From NCBI RefSeq assembly GCF_039831995.1, contig NZ_JBDOIO010000003.1:2728001-2792000 (forward strand): a stretch of 64,000 bases of DNA, read 5' to 3'. The notes beneath the pieces were generated by a model. It ran no database searches, was not told the origin of the DNA, and worked only from the letters and a program-made list of their open reading frames with translations. Origin of the DNA: Paenibacillus pabuli (GTDB lineage Bacteria; Bacillota; Bacilli; Paenibacillales; Paenibacillaceae). The translations under genes were made by a program, and so were the position numbers. Positions 55,797 through 62,715 of this stretch are shown piece after piece (position 1 is the first letter of the stretch; each line of letters opens with the position of its first letter).

Positions 55797-56075
55797 GTTC
55801 CTGAATAACCTCCTGTTGATGTGGAAGGTAGTAAAAAAGCGTCCATTCAAAACAAATTATATGTTAAGACCAGTTGTCGTCTCGTTGAAAAAAATAAAAT
55901 GAGTGATTTTCTGCAAAATCCTCATATATTCACATGTCTTCTTTCAGTTTATCATTGATTGAGCAAAAAGACTACACGCCGGGGCGCTCGTTATCGGTGC
56001 ATTTGATCAGTATTTCATGTAAACTGGAATGTAGTTGAGTAATCAAGAACTGGACCTATGGAGGAACTTAATTAT

Positions 56076-58031
56076 ATGCTGCTGCAAGTATCCGGAATTA
56101 TTAAACGTTATGGTGTCGATCCGATTCTGGACGGCGTGAACCTACAAATATTAGAACGTGAGCGCATCGGACTCGTGGGCGTGAACGGTGCGGGGAAATC
56201 CACCCTGCTCAAAATCATTGCGGGCGAAATGTCCTATGACGGCGGACAAATTTTCAAATCCAAAGAGACAACCCTAGGTTATCTCGCCCAGAACAGTGGT
56301 CTGCAATCCGACCGCTCCATCTGGGAGGAGATGATGCATGTTTTCTCTCACCTGACCCAGACTGAGGCTGAACTGCGGAAGATGGAACAGGATATTGCCG
56401 ATCCGGCCCAGATGGAGGACGAGAAAAAGTATGCGGACCTGCTTGAACGCTACGCGCAGCGATCGGACTGGTTCAAGGACCATGGCGGTTATGCGATGGA
56501 AACACGCATCCGCAGCGTCCTGCACGGAATGGGCTTTGGCGAGTTTTCACCCGATACTCCGATTGCTACCCTAAGCGGCGGACAAAAGACACGTCTTGCA
56601 CTTGCCCGCATCCTACTTCAGGCACCTGACCTGCTCATGCTGGATGAGCCTACCAACTATCTAGACATTCCGACCCTAACCTGGCTGGAAGATTATCTAA
56701 GAGGTTATTCAGGGGCACTGCTCGTTGTATCCCATGACCGGTATTTCCTTGATCGGCTGGTGACCACCATTGTGGAGATCGAACGGCACCGCTCCAAAAA
56801 GTACACAGGGAACTACAGCCGTTATATGGAGCTGAAGGCTGCCGAGTATGAGAGTCAGATGAAACAGTATGAGAAACAGCAGGATGAGATCGCCAAGATG
56901 GAGGACTTTGTACAGAAAAACATTGTACGTGCATCCACGACAAAGCGTGCCCAGAGCCGCCGTAAAGCGCTGGACAAGATGGAACGTTTGGACAAGCCGA
57001 TGGGTGACTTGAAGAAAGCTCACTTTTCTTTTGAGACAGCTGTCATGTCGGGTAAGGAAGTGCTTCGTGTGGACGATCTTTCCGTCGCATACGATGAAGC
57101 TTCGCCATTATTTCGCAATGTCTCCTTTGATCTTAGACGCGGGGAAACGGTAGCCTTGATCGGACCGAACGGGATCGGGAAATCCACAATGCTGAAGTGT
57201 CTCACCGGAAGCCTGCGTCCGGTAAGCGGCCAGATCCAGTGGGGAACCAAGGTGCAGATCGGGTATTATGATCAGGAGCAAACGGGACTAAACCCCAACA
57301 ATACGGTTCTGGAAGAGCTCTGGAGCGCATATCCCGGCATGGAGGAAGCAAGAATTCGCACCGTGCTTGGCAACTTCTTATTCAGCGGAGACGATGTACT
57401 CAAAAAGATCTCCTCGCTGAGCGGCGGTGAGAAGGCTCGTGTCTCCCTCTCCAAGCTCATGCTGAAGGAAGCCAATATGCTGATTCTTGATGAGCCTACC
57501 AACCATCTCGACCTTTTCGCCAAAGAAGTGCTGGAAGCTGCACTAATGGACTATGAGGGCACACTGCTGTTCATCTCTCATGACCGGTATTTCCTGAACA
57601 AGATGGCTGAACGTATCGTGGAGCTGCATCCTGGAGGAACAGAGCATTATCTCGGTAACTATGATGATTATATTGAGAAGAAGCAGGAGCTTGAGGACAT
57701 CGCACGCGAAGCCGCAGAAGCAGCTCTCTCTTCCTCTAAACGGTCTGTGAAACCGGATCAGGAACCAACCGAAAAATCCGGAGCCGCTTCATTCGAAGCA
57801 GACAAACAGGCCAAGCGTGAAGAGCGTAACCGGCAGCGGAAACAGGAAGCACTGGAACAGCAAATTGCCAAGCTGGAAACGGAAATTACAGAACTTGAAG
57901 CCCAGATGGCCCTGCCAGAGGTGTATCAGGATTACATGAGGCTGCAGGAGCTTCAGGAAGACACGGAAGCGCGGAAGCTGCAGCTGTCCAAAGCGTACGA
58001 AGATTGGGAAGTCCTCGCGCTGGAATCTTGA
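56076..58031 (+). CDS. ABC-F family ATPase (YdiF-like)
   Basis: A 651-residue soluble protein with two ABC domains and no membrane helices. First domain: GVNGAGKSTLLK, LSGGQKTRLALARIL, LLMLDEPTNYLDI. Linker (~250-310) with the ABC-F helical arm. Second domain: GPNGIGKSTMLK, LSGGEKARVSLSKLM, MLILDEPTNHLD. A charged coiled-coil C-terminal extension (~565-651: KREERNRQRKQEALEQQIAKLETEITELEAQM) is like YdiF/Uup types. ABC-F proteins act on the ribosome, in translation or antibiotic relief. The ATG is chosen for homology; GGAGG is 11 bases away. In B. subtilis ydiF also lies between tsaD and moaC. Confidence 0.92.
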   Translation: MLLQVSGIIKRYGVDPILDGVNLQILERERIGLVGVNGAGKSTLLKIIAGEMSYDGGQIFKSKETTLGYLAQNSGLQSDRSIWEEMMHVFSHLTQTEAELRKMEQDIADPAQMEDEKKYADLLERYAQRSDWFKDHGGYAMETRIRSVLHGMGFGEFSPDTPIATLSGGQKTRLALARILLQAPDLLMLDEPTNYLDIPTLTWLEDYLRGYSGALLVVSHDRYFLDRLVTTIVEIERHRSKKYTGNYSRYMELKAAEYESQMKQYEKQQDEIAKMEDFVQKNIVRASTTKRAQSRRKALDKMERLDKPMGDLKKAHFSFETAVMSGKEVLRVDDLSVAYDEASPLFRNVSFDLRRGETVALIGPNGIGKSTMLKCLTGSLRPVSGQIQWGTKVQIGYYDQEQTGLNPNNTVLEELWSAYPGMEEARIRTVLGNFLFSGDDVLKKISSLSGGEKARVSLSKLMLKEANMLILDEPTNHLDLFAKEVLEAALMDYEGTLLFISHDRYFLNKMAERIVELHPGGTEHYLGNYDDYIEKKQELEDIAREAAEAALSSSKRSVKPDQEPTEKSGAASFEADKQAKREERNRQRKQEALEQQIAKLETEITELEAQMALPEVYQDYMRLQELQEDTEARKLQLSKAYEDWEVLALES

Positions 58032-58096
58032 CCTCTCGTTCACCAGCACACGTTTCAAACCACAAGTGCAAGCCAAGATAATAAAAAGCAAATTAG

Positions 58097-58132
58097 TAAA
58101 AGCCGATTCCTTGACGGAACCGGCTTTTTTGT
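58097..58132 (+). terminator. terminator of the ABC-F gene
   Basis: AAAGCCGATTCC pairs with GGAACCGGCTTT around TTGAC and is followed by TTTTTGTTG. Confidence 0.88.
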
Positions 58133-58228
58133 TGAATTTGAATCACATCAGGGATTAATTTAGAGTTTTCGCATTTGTCAAATTTACTCGAATTGCGAAA
58201 AATATTTTTGCTCTACTCCTTTTCACAT

Positions 58229-58455
58229 TTATCCACAGAAAAGCAAGATAGCAAGCAGTACACTTAAGTTAATTATACAGCGGTAGAATCGCATTTTATA
58301 GGAAAAACCATATTTATCCACCAAGTTATCCACGTTATCCACAAGTTTGTGGATATAACACCTGTACACTATCCCCTAAAACCTTTTATTTTCGAAAACA
58401 TTGCTGGATTGGCTTTGGTATAGTTACCCACAAATTATCCTGAATATGTGTATAA
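58229..58455. other. DnaA-box cluster outside oriC
   Basis: Seven DnaA boxes lie in 227 AT-rich bases. Perfect TTATCCACA occurs at 58229-58237 and 58335-58343 (plus strand). One-mismatch boxes are TTATCCACC (58314), TTATCCACG (58326), the reverse ATATCCACA (58348-58356), TTACCCACA (58424) and the reverse TTATACACA (58447-58455). Four are packed at 12-, 9- and 13-base intervals. There is no dnaA or dnaN nearby, so this is not oriC; it resembles the DnaA-titrating clusters known in B. subtilis. Confidence 0.85.
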
Positions 58456-58514
58456 CTATAATCACATCTTGACAGATCGCTTTTTACTCCTTTAGATTAT
58501 CTCACATAATCAGA

Positions 58515-58548
58515 CAAAAGCAGACCCTCAGAACTAAGGTCTGCTTTT
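58515..58548 (-). terminator. terminator of leuA
   Basis: On the minus strand AAAAGCAGACCTTAG pairs with TGAGGGTCTGCTTTT and ends in the T-run and GTCTG. It lies about 50 bases past the leuA stop codon. Confidence 0.82.
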
Positions 58549-58597
58549 CGAATTCCGATGAGCCACTTCATTCTTTGTCTTGCGCATTCACCCTTTT

Positions 58598-60154
58598 CTA
58601 TACGTGTACCGATTTGTCGCTTTCCGCGGACTCTGCCTTGAGTCCCGCAGCATTACATGCCGCCACATAAGCAAGACCTGCAGCCATAACAATATCATTG
58701 TGCGTAGCTGTCCCTCTGAATTCTCGTCCTGCACGTTCCACCGCAACAGCCGCCTCGGCTGTCGCCTCTTCTCCTCCGCTCAGCGCATGGATTTCCATGT
58801 CCACGAAGGTGATATCATCCGAGATGCTTTGACCAATCGCACGAATGGCCGCTTCTACCGGTCCGCTGCCAACTGCAGAATACGTCTGTTCACCCGTACC
58901 TGTCCGGATCCGAACAGCTGCCATCCGATCCGTCATGCTGCCTGCCGTTACCTGCAGTTCAACCAGCTCATAATCCTGCGCAGGGATGTTCATCGTCTGG
59001 CTGACCATTTGCAGCAACTGATCGTCACTGACCACTTTTTGCTTGTCGGCCGTTTCCTTGAATACTTCGTACAACTGTTCCATTTGCTGCTCATCCGGTT
59101 CGAAGCCGTATTTGCGAACACGGTCTTTCAGAGCATGACGACCGGAATGCTTACCCAGAATAATCATGCTGCGCGGGATACCCAGTGCTTCAGGATCCAT
59201 GATTTCATAAGTGTTCCGATTCTTCAGCAGTCCATCCTGATGAATTCCCGATTCATGCTGAAACGCATTGCGTCCAACAACCGGCTTGTTATAGGCAATC
59301 GGGAAGTGCATGGCCCGGCTGATCTGGCGAGAAGTCTCGTATAGCTGATTCAGTTTGATATTGGTTGTGGCACCGATGGCATCCCCGCGTGTCTCCAGTG
59401 CCATGATCAGCTCCTCCAATGCACAGTTTCCTGTACGCTCGCCGATTCCGTTGATTGTTACTTCGATCTGGGAAGCCCCATTCGCGATCGCAGCCAAACT
59501 GTTGGCCACCGCAAGTCCCAGATCATTATGACAGTGAGCACTATACCTTACTTGATCGCCGCCTCTTGCACCCTCGCGGACACGACGGAACATCTCTCCG
59601 TATTCATGCGGCAGCGCGTAACCGACGGTATCCGGCAGATTGATGATGCTGGCCCCGGCTTCAATAGCCACCTCAATCATCTCGATCAGGTTATCCATCT
59701 TCGTCCGGGCTGCATCCATCGCAGTGAATTCCACAATATCGGTAAACTGGCGTGCATAGGACACCATCTCCCGTGCAGTAGCGACAACCTCGCTGCGCGG
59801 ACGACGTAATTGGTGCTCAATATGGATATCCGACGATGAGATGAACAGGTGAATCCGGCGGCGAGCAGCATCAGCGGTTGCTTTTACTGCGGCGTCAATG
59901 TCTCCTTTGACCGCACGGGCAAATCCGCAGATTTCCACGTTTTGCAGTTGTCTGGATATCGCCTGAACCGCCGCGAACTCACCTGGGCTGGAGATCGGGA
60001 ATCCAGGCTCAATGACGTCAATACCAAGCGCAGCCAGTTGGTGAGCCAGTTCAATTTTTTGTTCCGGCTGCAGACTGGCTCCCGGAGCCTGTTCTCCATC
60101 ACGCAGCGTAGTATCAAAAATCTCAATCTTCCGTTTATTTATTTCCGTTGTCAT
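58598..60154 (-). CDS. leuA: 2-isopropylmalate synthase
   Basis: A 518-residue alpha-isopropylmalate synthase, the first committed step of leucine synthesis (acetyl-CoA plus 2-ketoisovalerate). Signature 1 is IFDTTLRDGEQAPGASL, and the metal-binding part is YSAHCHNDLGLAVANSLAAIANGASQIEVTINGIGERTGNCALEELIMAL. The C-terminal ~120 residues are the LeuA allosteric domain that binds leucine (VAVSQTMNIPAQDYELVELQVTAGS-like region). The ATG at 60154 follows GGAGG by nine bases; the codon three earlier sits too near. It stands alone, with no leuB, leuC or leuD, and is controlled by two T-boxes. Confidence 0.95.
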   Translation of the reverse strand: MTTEINKRKIEIFDTTLRDGEQAPGASLQPEQKIELAHQLAALGIDVIEPGFPISSPGEFAAVQAISRQLQNVEICGFARAVKGDIDAAVKATADAARRRIHLFISSSDIHIEHQLRRPRSEVVATAREMVSYARQFTDIVEFTAMDAARTKMDNLIEMIEVAIEAGASIINLPDTVGYALPHEYGEMFRRVREGARGGDQVRYSAHCHNDLGLAVANSLAAIANGASQIEVTINGIGERTGNCALEELIMALETRGDAIGATTNIKLNQLYETSRQISRAMHFPIAYNKPVVGRNAFQHESGIHQDGLLKNRNTYEIMDPEALGIPRSMIILGKHSGRHALKDRVRKYGFEPDEQQMEQLYEVFKETADKQKVVSDDQLLQMVSQTMNIPAQDYELVELQVTAGSMTDRMAAVRIRTGTGEQTYSAVGSGPVEAAIRAIGQSISDDITFVDMEIHALSGGEEATAEAAVAVERAGREFRGTATHNDIVMAAGLAYVAACNAAGLKAESAESDKSVHV

Positions 60155-60317
60155 TATACTCATCCTCCATCAATTTCAATGTATGTGTATTCCGTGATAA
60201 ACATTATCTATGCTGTTTTTTTCTTGCCTGGGTGCACGTCGACTTGCACTCCTGGATTCAATACCTACTCATATTCCAAATCGATGCTCTACCCTACCCT
60301 TTTGCTGCCGGCAGCAA

Positions 60318-60650
60318 AACAAATAACCCGCCATCTCATCTAAGAGACGGCGGGTTATATCCCCTCCGCGGTACCACTCTCGCTTGACGATCCCGGCTTG
60401 CGCCGTCATCATCCACCTCGTCGTCTCCAGGCTCACCACCGCTACGCTGTTCATGGCGCTGCTTAGTGGAGCATTCTGGAGAAACACCCGATAACGGGGG
60501 TCAACCGTTGCTGTGTACACAGGACTTCTTGTTTCCACAGCTCCGTTCCCGGGCGAGATTCAAACGATTCCACCCACTGCGTCGCACCACCCCGCAGCTC
60601 TCTGAGCGCTTCATCGTTTTACTGCTCCCGTTCATTACATTTATCGTATG
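60318..60650 (-). promoter_or_regulatory. T-box leader, gene-proximal copy (leucine)
   Basis: On the minus strand the elements occur in order: stem I with AGAGAGCTGCGGGGTGGTG-type conserved loop (near 60595), the specifier region GAATCTCGCC with CTC as the probable Leu codon (near 60555), the T-box core AGAGTGGTACCGCG (60366-60380) and a terminator stem (AACCCGCC...GGCGGGTT, 60320-60358) with a short T-rich tail. Uncharged tRNA-Leu would base-pair with the T-box and permit read-through into leuA. Confidence 0.88.
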
Positions 60651-60661
60651 TACCTTTTTTT

Positions 60662-61050
60662 CAATCAAAAAAGCCTGCCATCTCTCGCAATATTGCAAGA
60701 GACGACAGGCTGTAACCATCGCGGTACCACTCTTGTTGACTTTCCATTCTCCTAAGACAGCTTCCGTAATGCGTCCACACGGATCTGTTTCCTCAAGGAT
60801 GAAAAATCCCCTTAGTTATTGCCGAGCTCTGACCTAACATTCAGGTCATCCACACGACAACGGCCCAATCACGGAGGCAACCCGTAACGATGTACTTTCT
60901 CACGACCTGTTCGGTCTTCGGACCTCCTGGGGAGTTTCCGCGTTCCATCGTTCCGCTTCCAGGCGAGTTTCAGGTTTCCTTCGACTGCGTTGCACCACCC
61001 CACAGCTCTCTATGACCCGGATTTACCTTACTATTCCTGTTCATTGCGTT
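60662..61050 (-). promoter_or_regulatory. T-box leader, gene-distal copy (leucine)
   Basis: A second, upstream T-box on the same strand: stem I with AGAGAGCTGTGGGGTGGTG (near 61010), the specifier region GAAACTCGCC with CTC (near 60965), the T-box core AGAGTGGTACCGC (60721-60733), and a terminator stem GCCTGTCGTCTCTTGC / GCGAGAGATGGCAGGC with TTTTTT (60664-60710). Since both copies read CTC, the two act in series on the same amino acid signal. Confidence 0.88.
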
Positions 61051-61091
61051 TTTCAGTTCAGGACTTCAATATCCTGTTTAAATTTGTAACT

Positions 61092-61141: not shown

Positions 61142-62197
61142 CTAAACAGATTGAACAGACCACGCCTCCAAGGATAACCCTGGATCTGCCTTGGCATCAA
61201 ATTCCGAGATTTCACCCCGCTGCCATTTCAGATAAGCGGCAGCTCCGATCATCGCTGCATTATCCGTGCAGTACTCCATCGGAGGAATCAGCAATTCGAG
61301 CCCTTCCTTGGCACAACGCTCCTGCAATGCCGAGCGTAAACCGCGGTTAGCCGCAACGCCTCCGCACAGAAGCAGCTGGCGTGATCCGTATTCGCGAACG
61401 GCCCGTACGGCTTTCTCCACCAACACTTCCACAACAGCTTCCTGGAAGCCGCGTGCAACAGCAGATGGTTCCAGCGTTTCTCCACGCATTTTGGCCTGAT
61501 TGAGCGCATTCAGTACAGCAGATTTCAATCCACTGAGACTAAAATCGTAAGAACCGGCTTCCAGCCATACCCGAGGTAACGGCACAACCTGCTCTGCTTC
61601 AGATGCCATCCGGTCCACATGAGGCCCCCCCGGATACGGGCACCCCAGGGCACGTGCTACCTTGTCATATGCTTCGCCTACGGCATCATCCCGCGTACGG
61701 CCAATCAGTTTGAACTTACCCTCGGATTCCATATGCACAAGCTCCGTGTGTCCGCCAGACACAACCAGAGCCATCGCAGGATATTGCAATTCATGTGTAA
61801 GCCGGTTGGCATAGATATGGCCAGCAATATGATGCGTGCCAATCAGCGGTTTGCCCAGAGCCATGGCAAGCGTTTTGGCCGCAACGATACCCACCAGCAA
61901 TGCACCCACCAGTCCGGGTCCCTGCGTCACGGCGATCGCGCTCAGGTCTCTTGGACGGATACCGGATTGTTCAATCGCCTGCTCCATCATCAAGGTGATC
62001 ACCTCAACATGCTTACGCGAAGCGACCTCTGGCACAACTCCGCCAAACGCCTTATGTGTCTCAATCTGGCTCGAGATCAGGTTGGACAGCACTTCTTGTC
62101 CATCCTTGACCACAGCAACCGATGTTTCATCACAGCTTGTCTCCACCGCCAAAATATAGGATGGAGCCGATTGTTGTTGTTCACTCAGTTCGTTCAT
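61142..62197 (-). CDS. tsaD: tRNA N6-adenosine threonylcarbamoyltransferase TsaD (Gcp/YdiE)
   Basis: A 351-residue TsaD/Kae1. ASKHA motifs: ILAVETSCDETSVAVV at the N-terminus, VTQGPGLVGALLVGI, GTHHIAGHIYANRL (metal histidines), ALVVSGGHTELV, GRTRDDAVGEAYDKVARALGCPYPGG and LLCGGVAANRGLR. With TsaB and TsaE it transfers threonylcarbamoyl from TC-AMP to A37 of ANN-decoding tRNAs (t6A). The ATG at 62197 overlaps the stop of rimI as ATGA, so translation is coupled. Last gene of tsaE-tsaB-rimI-tsaD; the gene order is the B. subtilis ydiB-ydiC-ydiD-ydiE order. Confidence 0.97.
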   Translation of the reverse strand: MNELSEQQQSAPSYILAVETSCDETSVAVVKDGQEVLSNLISSQIETHKAFGGVVPEVASRKHVEVITLMMEQAIEQSGIRPRDLSAIAVTQGPGLVGALLVGIVAAKTLAMALGKPLIGTHHIAGHIYANRLTHELQYPAMALVVSGGHTELVHMESEGKFKLIGRTRDDAVGEAYDKVARALGCPYPGGPHVDRMASEAEQVVPLPRVWLEAGSYDFSLSGLKSAVLNALNQAKMRGETLEPSAVARGFQEAVVEVLVEKAVRAVREYGSRQLLLCGGVAANRGLRSALQERCAKEGLELLIPPMEYCTDNAAMIGAAAYLKWQRGEISEFDAKADPGLSLEAWSVQSV

Positions 62198-62715
62198 GAA
62201 TCCGTTACGCTTCCTTCCTCTTCGCCGCTCCGGCCTGCAGGCGGCAAATTCGCCCACATAATCATCGCATCCTCCTGATTGTCGGAGTAATACCCTTTGC
62301 GAAGACCTGCCGATTCAAACCCTTTTTTCTCATACAAACGCTGGGCAACCAGGTTCGATACCCTCACTTCCAGCGTCATTCGCTCCATGCCAAGATATGC
62401 CGCTGTTCTCATAAGCTCATCCAGCAGCTTTTCGCCAAGCTTGCGACCCCGGTAGGCCTCTCTTACCGCGATGTTTGTAATATGAGCCTCATCCATAATG
62501 GTCCACATCCCGGCATACCCAATAGCCTTGCCTTCCAGTTCCATGACCATATATTTGGCAAAATGATTATTCGTTAATTCGTTTCGAAATGCTTCTTCCG
62601 TCCAGGGCATCGTAAATGCCTCATGTTCAATAACCATGACATCCGGAATATCATTCAATGTCATAAGTCTGAACTGAAGTGCTGCATCCTGTCCGTAACC
62701 TTCCATATCGTCCAT
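62194..62715 (-). CDS. rimI: ribosomal protein S18-alanine N-acetyltransferase RimI
   Basis: A 173-residue GNAT acetyltransferase of the RimI type. LRLMTLNDIPDVMVIEHEAFTMPW-like start, then the acetyl-CoA loop VREAYRGRKLGEKLLDELMRTAAYLGMERMTLEVRVSNLVAQRLYEKKGF with the Q/RxxGxG/A variant. RimI acetylates the N-terminal alanine of ribosomal protein S18. The ATG follows GGAAGGGTGGC. It stands 18 bases after tsaB and overlaps tsaD by 4 bases, as in the Bacillus ydiD position. Confidence 0.93.
   Translation of the reverse strand: MDDMEGYGQDAALQFRLMTLNDIPDVMVIEHEAFTMPWTEEAFRNELTNNHFAKYMVMELEGKAIGYAGMWTIMDEAHITNIAVREAYRGRKLGEKLLDELMRTAAYLGMERMTLEVRVSNLVAQRLYEKKGFESAGLRKGYYSDNQEDAMIMWANLPPAGRSGEEEGSVTDS

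Follow-up and report, generated by a model that had tools for sequence, protein, structure and literature searches.

A conserved, ordered array of predicted DnaA boxes between ydiF and leuA in Paenibacillus pabuli, with counterparts across the phylum

DnaA-box clusters outside oriC

In Bacillus subtilis, the region listed as "downstream of gcp; downstream of ydiF" is number 4 of 269 DnaA-binding regions in vitro and carries 10 sites; it belongs to the eight strongest regions in vitro, and these eight were also bound in vivo (PMC4447404). Its Kd was 0.15 uM for ATP-DnaA and 0.33 uM for ADP-DnaA, and its recovery at 55 nM was 16-fold greater with ATP, against a largest difference of 3-4-fold at oriC, which depends little on nucleotide state in this species (PMC4447404). 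Removal of six clusters outside oriC resulted in early initiation, partly relieved by re-adding one of them (PMC5295017). Early initiation after this removal is reported across PMC5295017, PMC13220808, PMC5742627, PMC11019786 and PMC4585315, several of which liken the clusters to Escherichia coli datA. Such clusters are generally regarded as sinks that individually matter little, and a passage of the review PMC5295017 states that none with a significant role has been identified in B. subtilis. A ten-fold excess of DnaA did not cause over-initiation in this species, according to a 2026 review that also describes the existence of B. subtilis regulators balancing DnaA-ATP and DnaA-ADP as unknown (PMC13220808).

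The array described here resembles E. coli datA, which combines same-direction boxes at set intervals, ATP-DnaA and a location nearer oriC than the terminus, and whose box direction has been linked to head-to-tail interaction of ATP-DnaA (PMC5742627). The likeness would be one of function: datA contains an IHF site and its hydrolysis of DnaA-ATP is proven, whereas hydrolysis at the array is hypothetical, and the gene context of datA differs. E. coli DARS1 and DARS2 are likewise compact box clusters outside oriC; however, DARS elements have an opposed box I and prefer ADP-DnaA (PMC5742627), whereas the B. subtilis counterpart of the array prefers ATP-DnaA.

The array in Paenibacillus pabuli and its surroundings

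The window analyzed is a stretch of 64,000 nucleotides of Paenibacillus pabuli DNA. A reading made from the letters alone (the sequence-only reading) had pointed to seven boxes, two of them perfect, in 227 AT-rich bases between an ABC-F gene and leuA. Box counting confirmed this: between ydiF and leuA there are seven matches to TTATCCACA with no more than one mismatch, the perfect ones at 58229 and 58335, and an eighth, with two mismatches, is at 58435(+). Five of the seven are on the plus strand, pointing to tsaD, and two are on the minus strand; four fall inside the 43 bp of 58314-58356. G+C makes up 34% of the cluster, 36% of the intergenic region and 48% of the window. The element is read as a row of predicted DnaA-binding sites in non-coding DNA.

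Table 1. Features of the array and its neighborhood (window coordinates).
Feature	Coordinates	Strand	Basis or remark
ABC-F ATPase, ydiF-type, 3' end facing array	56058..58031	+	NCBIfam
Terminator-like hairpin with T-run, after ydiF, ahead of array	58098..58128	+	folding z -3.7
DnaA-box array, 7 boxes with at most 1 mismatch	58229..58455	.	box count; starts 58229(+), 58314(+), 58326(+), 58335(+), 58348(-), 58424(+), 58447(-)
Outer left DnaA box, perfect TTATCCACA	58229..58237	+	
Core box TTATCCACC, 3 bp ahead of abutting pair	58314..58322	+	same-offset box in 63/79 arrays
Abutting head-to-tail pair, TTATCCACG then perfect TTATCCACA, no gap	58326..58343	+	at most 2 mismatches in 79/79 arrays
Inverted box ATATCCACA, 4 bp past pair	58348..58356	-	same offset in only 21/79 arrays
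Outer right box TTACCCACA	58424..58432	+	
Outer right inverted box TTATACACA	58447..58455	-	
Terminator-like hairpin after leuA, array's other side	58516..58548	-	folding z -3.9
leuA, 3' end facing array	58598..60163	-	NCBIfam
tsaD (gcp), array's neighbor in most other lineages examined	61142..62257	-	NCBIfam

The gene context also stood as first described, with the ABC-F gene, leuA and tsaD nearby and no replication gene near; dnaA lies on a separate contig (C5:804832). NCBIfam families additionally name rimI and tsaB and, beyond ydiF, 5-formyltetrahydrofolate cyclo-ligase and moaC; the name ydiF is our own label for the ABC-F gene, given from its position and likeness. The two flanking hairpins were spotted by eye and then folded, and are absent from a stricter terminator scan, which returned one terminator-like site in 57900-58700 against 0.7 expected. 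Tandem T-box leaders lie between leuA and tsaD on the leuA (minus) strand (60340-60644 and 60695-61053), scoring 108.7 and 96.6 bits against a gathering score of 93.

The precedent near gcp that the sequence-only reading had named is correct: it is region 4 of PMC4447404, and the array is its Paenibacillus counterpart by location and box type. Both lie between the 3' ends of ydiF and tsaD (gcp), and both carry several TTATNCACA-type boxes (here seven, far above chance, with 0 of 5,000 simulations reaching that number). A place in the origin-side half of a chromosome arm, as in B. subtilis, would follow for the array from its position in congeneric genomes. Box numbers are 7-8 in P. pabuli and 10 sites in B. 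subtilis. Unlike its counterpart, the P. pabuli array is separated from tsaD, 2.7 kb away, by leuA; relatives without leuA have the direct arrangement. The binding and genetic data belong to the B. subtilis cluster, whereas the Paenibacillus array is known from sequence.

The density had been called very unlikely by chance, and simulation bore this out. First-order Markov sequences of 227 bp reached maxima of 2, 2 and 3 boxes for three background compositions, and none of 5,000 simulations for each composition reached seven. Chance or AT-richness as the cause is excluded by these simulations, by the box-poor 5' side of tsaD and by the box-poor 5 kb upstream of ydiF (both below).

The rest of the genome (6.95 Mb in five contigs, with the window on C3 and dnaA on C5) was checked by three whole-genome scans for two close boxes, followed by box counts in eight fetched stretches, one of them the window's own; such scans could miss clusters of widely spaced or degenerate boxes. 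In these counts a single group besides the array reached seven boxes per 300 bp, immediately upstream of dnaA; the other groups held three or four. The sequence-only reading would have been refuted by many similar windows elsewhere; among the stretches counted, only the group at dnaA matched the array, with these close-box scans taking the place of the full ranking of 300-bp windows that had been proposed.

Several smaller groups are recorded as observations in their own right. Two four-box groups within 4.5 kb of each other (L001:7001-7133 and L001:11045-11319; G000:C3 at about 3.683 and 3.687 Mb) adjoin a chemotaxis-receptor-like gene and unnamed genes. Four boxes at L003:5617-5744, about 5 kb before dnaA and past jag and a yidC-like gene, may match the B. 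subtilis trmE/jag cluster. Further four-box groups lie about 17 kb (L004:10168-10252) and 99 kb (L005:9089-9162) past dnaA on the same contig; neither reading frame at the former matched an NCBIfam family. Directly ahead of the dnaA-upstream box region, P. pabuli carries gntP-type and gluconokinase genes (L003:7097-10065).

Retention, geometry and position across the phylum

A protein search for ydiF among named genomes yielded at least 587 loci, of which the best 80 were analyzed, two of them from one strain. The closest ydiF proteins among the matches listed were those of Paenibacillus sp. ACRRY, P. illinoisensis and P. xylanilyticus (97-99%). Of these best 80 loci, 78 carried 5-10 boxes per 300 bp in the 5 kb that follow ydiF. 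The remaining two had one box (L100) and none (L103), and absence is not demonstrated there because their contigs end 653 bp and 134 bp after ydiF. The 5 kb upstream of ydiF reached three boxes per 300 bp at 2 of the 80 named loci and never exceeded that number.

The 78 cluster-bearing loci take in Paenibacillus, Saccharibacillus, Gorillibacterium, Aneurinibacillus, Aquibacillus, Paraliobacillus and Halobacillus. The order was ydiF-cluster-leuA-tsaD in 46 and ydiF-cluster-tsaD in 23; four others had ydiF-cluster-leuA without tsaD in reach, and five had neither gene in reach. The adjacent leuA noted by the sequence-only reading thus recurs: it separates the cluster from tsaD at 46 of the 78 loci and is absent from that interval in 23.

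The class survey drew on 200 Bacilli genomes, 184 of them with a ydiF match, from which 80 downstream stretches were hand-chosen to spread over families, named here by codes such as f10, f16 and f17. The stretches came from families with listed places; families such as f9, f18 and f42 lay outside the sample. At least four boxes per 300 bp were found in 53 of the 80 stretches (24 of 34 families), rising to 50 of 58 (23 of 25 families) where both ydiF and tsaD were present, and in 44 of these 58 tsaD-containing stretches no more than 1 kb separated the end of the cluster from the 3' end of tsaD. The eight tsaD stretches without a cluster comprise four from f16, three from f17 and one from f10 (L174-L178, L180, L182 and L159). 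These array-less stretches of f16, f10 and part of f17 are possible secondary losses.

A tie of the array to ydiF as such was rejected: 19 of the 22 class-survey stretches without tsaD also lacked a cluster, as counted downstream of ydiF. At named Paenibacillaceae loci, the array remains with ydiF where tsaD lies elsewhere. Neither gene is indispensable for the array.

Outside Bacilli, a tsaD search of 149 genomes of the phylum matched 146, of which 141 lay outside the class. We examined 85 of these 141 genomes from 61 families, comprising the 25 best-scoring and 60 hand-picked down the listing. Within 1 kb on the tsaD 3' side, at least four boxes per 300 bp occurred in 47 of the 85 genomes (34 of 61 families) and at least three in 59, and an abutting pair with at most two mismatches was present in the tsaD 3' flank of 51. 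None of the 85 had as many as three boxes on the 5' side, or a pair there with three mismatches or fewer. In E. coli K-12, the 1 kb on the tsaD 3' side contained no box with at most one mismatch. Reading frames past the array vary among the ten non-Bacilli loci inspected.

The sequence-only reading had proposed retention of the cluster at the same locus across Bacillales, to be checked in the tsaD-ydiF interval of relatives. The cluster is there at 78 of the 80 named loci and in 50 of 58 Bacilli stretches, and its reach extends to other classes of the phylum. It is not universal, because 38 of the 85 non-Bacilli genomes had fewer than four boxes (28 of them without the pair as well) and 8 of the 58 Bacilli tsaD stretches had no cluster. 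Since many distant bacteria have a similar row of boxes beside the same gene, the array is probably an element of great age that controls chromosome copying. The B. subtilis counterpart was known already; for the box grammar, the phylum-wide reach or conservation beyond B. subtilis we found no report in the open-licence literature, although an earlier mention in Okumura 2012 or Ishikawa 2007 is possible.

Box content, place and direction, the abutting pair, phase and the survival of the array through neighbor-gene changes were computed directly. The pair occurs with at most two mismatches in 18 bp in all 79 arrays (78 relatives and the window), with at most one mismatch in 74, and a third box 3 bp ahead of it in 63; none of 1,000 simulated stretches held a pair with fewer than four mismatches. 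Perfect pairs TTATNCACNTTATNCACA numbered 29 in 40 genomes, of which 25 lay within 2.6 kb of the ydiF 3' end; the off-locus pairs, in G204, G238, G248 and G110, were 0.3-4.2 Mb away from ydiF. Separately, genome G151 contains a minisatellite-like run in which the nine-letter unit TTATACACG, a near-DnaA box, is repeated head to tail (C1:2674285-2674347).

The shared direction seen at datA is also found here. In addition to the five of seven window boxes, 251 boxes outside Bacilli point to tsaD and 25 away; the class survey gave 250 to tsaD and 79 away, and the named loci 434 with ydiF and 106 against. Gaps recur as well. Outside Bacilli, gaps of 0 bp were seen in 26 families and of 3 bp in 19, and the most frequent long gap measured 33-36 bp; the Bacilli sets had gaps of 0 bp (19 families), 3 bp (16), 13 bp (10), 33 bp (11), 34 bp (10) and 45 bp (9). 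Among 29 arrays sharing the right-hand spacing, many of them close relatives, the core and outer right boxes were 0.91-1.00 conserved per column, compared with 0.76 for the inverted box and 0.70 for the 67-bp spacer. A DARS-like core of three boxes, the first opposed, was rejected, as an opposed box stands beside the core in only 21 of 79 arrays.

The dnaA-upstream regions of the same phylum, taken as oriC, resemble the array in box number and differ in grammar. Box directions were mixed in the 20 regions, whose best 300 bp held no same-direction abutting boxes, and a pair with at most two mismatches occurred in one of the 20 upstream stretches and two of the 20 downstream ones, against the 51 of 85 tsaD 3' flanks.

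Periodicity was tested on same-direction box distances of 20-200 bp. Drawing a single representative at random from each of 26 family groups gave a mean resultant of 0.53 at 10.75 bp, and no more than 0.17 at periods of 9.5 bp or less and of 11.75 bp or more; a null in which long gaps were jittered by up to 5 bp gave a mean of 0.21 and a maximum of 0.40, with 0 of 200 draws matching. The 524 distinct family-distance values gave 0.38 (null maximum 0.19, 0 of 300), and the non-Bacilli set repeated the phase with 0.39 at 11.0 bp, a value that none of 200 null draws matched (maximum 0.24). The dnaA-upstream regions gave 0.31 at 10.5 bp, which exceeded all 300 jittered sets (maximum 0.25), together with 0.29 at 8.25 bp, five of the 20 being from one genus and unthinned. 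Helical phase as a unique mark of the array was therefore rejected, because oriC carries a weaker phase signal too; as far as these box patterns indicate, it is the combination of direction, pair and phase that is special to the array.

Chromosome position was taken from 35 of 50 and 17 of 32 genomes, with some lengths rounded. In all 20 congeneric genomes placed, the locus is on the right arm, at a distance from dnaA of 0.21-0.25 of the genome; in 15 other Bacilli this distance is 0.08-0.25, and in 13 of them the locus is again on the right arm. Among 13 non-Bacilli genomes with a cluster, 12 had it within 0.27 of dnaA on either arm. Position as a property of the cluster itself was rejected: it follows tsaD, because in four non-Bacilli genomes without a cluster tsaD occupies the same range.

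Candidate functions and significance

The array is probably an ancient regulatory site outside oriC, at which an ordered head-to-tail ATP-DnaA complex would withhold DnaA and restrain re-initiation in a datA-like manner. DnaA, mainly ATP-DnaA, would assemble head-to-tail on the abutting pair and the adjacent tight boxes; outer boxes on about the same helix face would join a single ordered nucleoprotein complex, and their phasing would suit one bent or coiled complex. ATP-DnaA would thus be kept from oriC, and with the array presumably copied in the first half of its arm's replication, re-initiation would be restrained. Points that weigh against this reading are the incomplete conservation, the statement on cluster roles in PMC5295017, the lack of over-initiation under ten-fold DnaA excess in B. 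subtilis (PMC13220808), a position that goes with tsaD, the phase signal shared with oriC and the promoter-like matches around the array. DnaA binding in P. pabuli, the shape of the complex and the effect on initiation are what we infer by analogy. The direct data are from B. subtilis: DnaA binding and ATP preference at the corresponding site (PMC4447404), and the joint effect of six clusters on initiation (PMC5295017).

Two other accounts are each unlikely, though worth weighing. If the array were a passive sink, it would titrate DnaA, and box number and affinity would matter while order and spacing would not. The high box count fits, as does the B. subtilis effect, which became strong only when none of the six clusters was left and was eased in part by one re-added at various locations (PMC5295017); one-way direction, the recurring abutting pair and helical phase are unpredicted by a sink. 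The sequence-only reading had proposed a regulatory DnaA reservoir, and its many boxes and conserved locus stand, whereas a plain reservoir leaves order, direction and phase unpredicted. The role itself is putative because of the statement in PMC5295017 that no clusters with significant roles have been identified in B. subtilis.

An active inactivator, in which the ordered complex would stimulate hydrolysis of DnaA-bound ATP as at E. coli datA and act as an ATP/ADP switch, is similarly doubtful. Same-direction boxes and ATP preference resemble datA (PMC5742627, PMC4447404), the geometry is conserved, and the existence of regulators of the DnaA-ATP/ADP balance in B. subtilis is given as unknown in PMC13220808. 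However, datA requires IHF, which according to the same review is absent from B. subtilis (PMC13220808), and B. subtilis oriC depends little on nucleotide state (PMC4447404). We regard as equally speculative the broader proposal that the tsaD-side array is one homologous element older than the class split of the phylum, whose phased ATP-DnaA complex would actively reset DnaA as a datA-like switch.

Transcriptional control, with DnaA at the array regulating a neighboring gene, is improbable. Other B. subtilis clusters do regulate genes (PMC4447404), the next reading frame runs away from tsaD with the array before its start at several non-Bacilli loci, and 57900-58700 holds five promoter-like matches against 1.7 expected. 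However, the array lies between 3' ends in both the window and B. subtilis, terminator-like hairpins flank it in the window, and its neighbors differ, being leuA or tsaD in Paenibacillaceae and other frames elsewhere; survival through such changes speaks against control of one adjacent gene.

An anchor for chromosome architecture, in which a DnaA complex, possibly together with a nucleoid protein, would assist in folding or positioning the chromosome, is very improbable. Phased boxes would suit a bent or looped complex, and DnaA and Rok co-localize at some B. subtilis sites (PMC11841835), but Rok-dependent sites mostly have no recognizable boxes and DnaA at the box-rich dnaA promoter showed no significant need for Rok (PMC4447404).

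A dormant or relic replication origin is extremely improbable: although the array has as many boxes as the region upstream of dnaA, the dnaA gene itself is on a different contig, 58001-58650 contains no DnaA-trio-like repeat whereas dnaA-dnaN of the same genome has one, the box grammar is unlike that of the 20 dnaA-upstream regions, and a B. subtilis study calls alternative-origin use unlikely (PMC11019786). A second origin was rejected on account of the missing repeat, which speaks against an origin, and the other grammar.

The array has been retained beside one gene in many families and several classes, with direction, pair and phase, and the retention of these three suggests that selection sees the shape of the complex, beyond box count. 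If true, a datA-like activity would represent a DnaA-ATP/ADP switch so far not found in these bacteria. The array geometry makes the question of the B. subtilis DnaA-ATP/DnaA-ADP balance testable, and the box grammar offers a simple guide by which the element can be sought in further genomes of this phylum.
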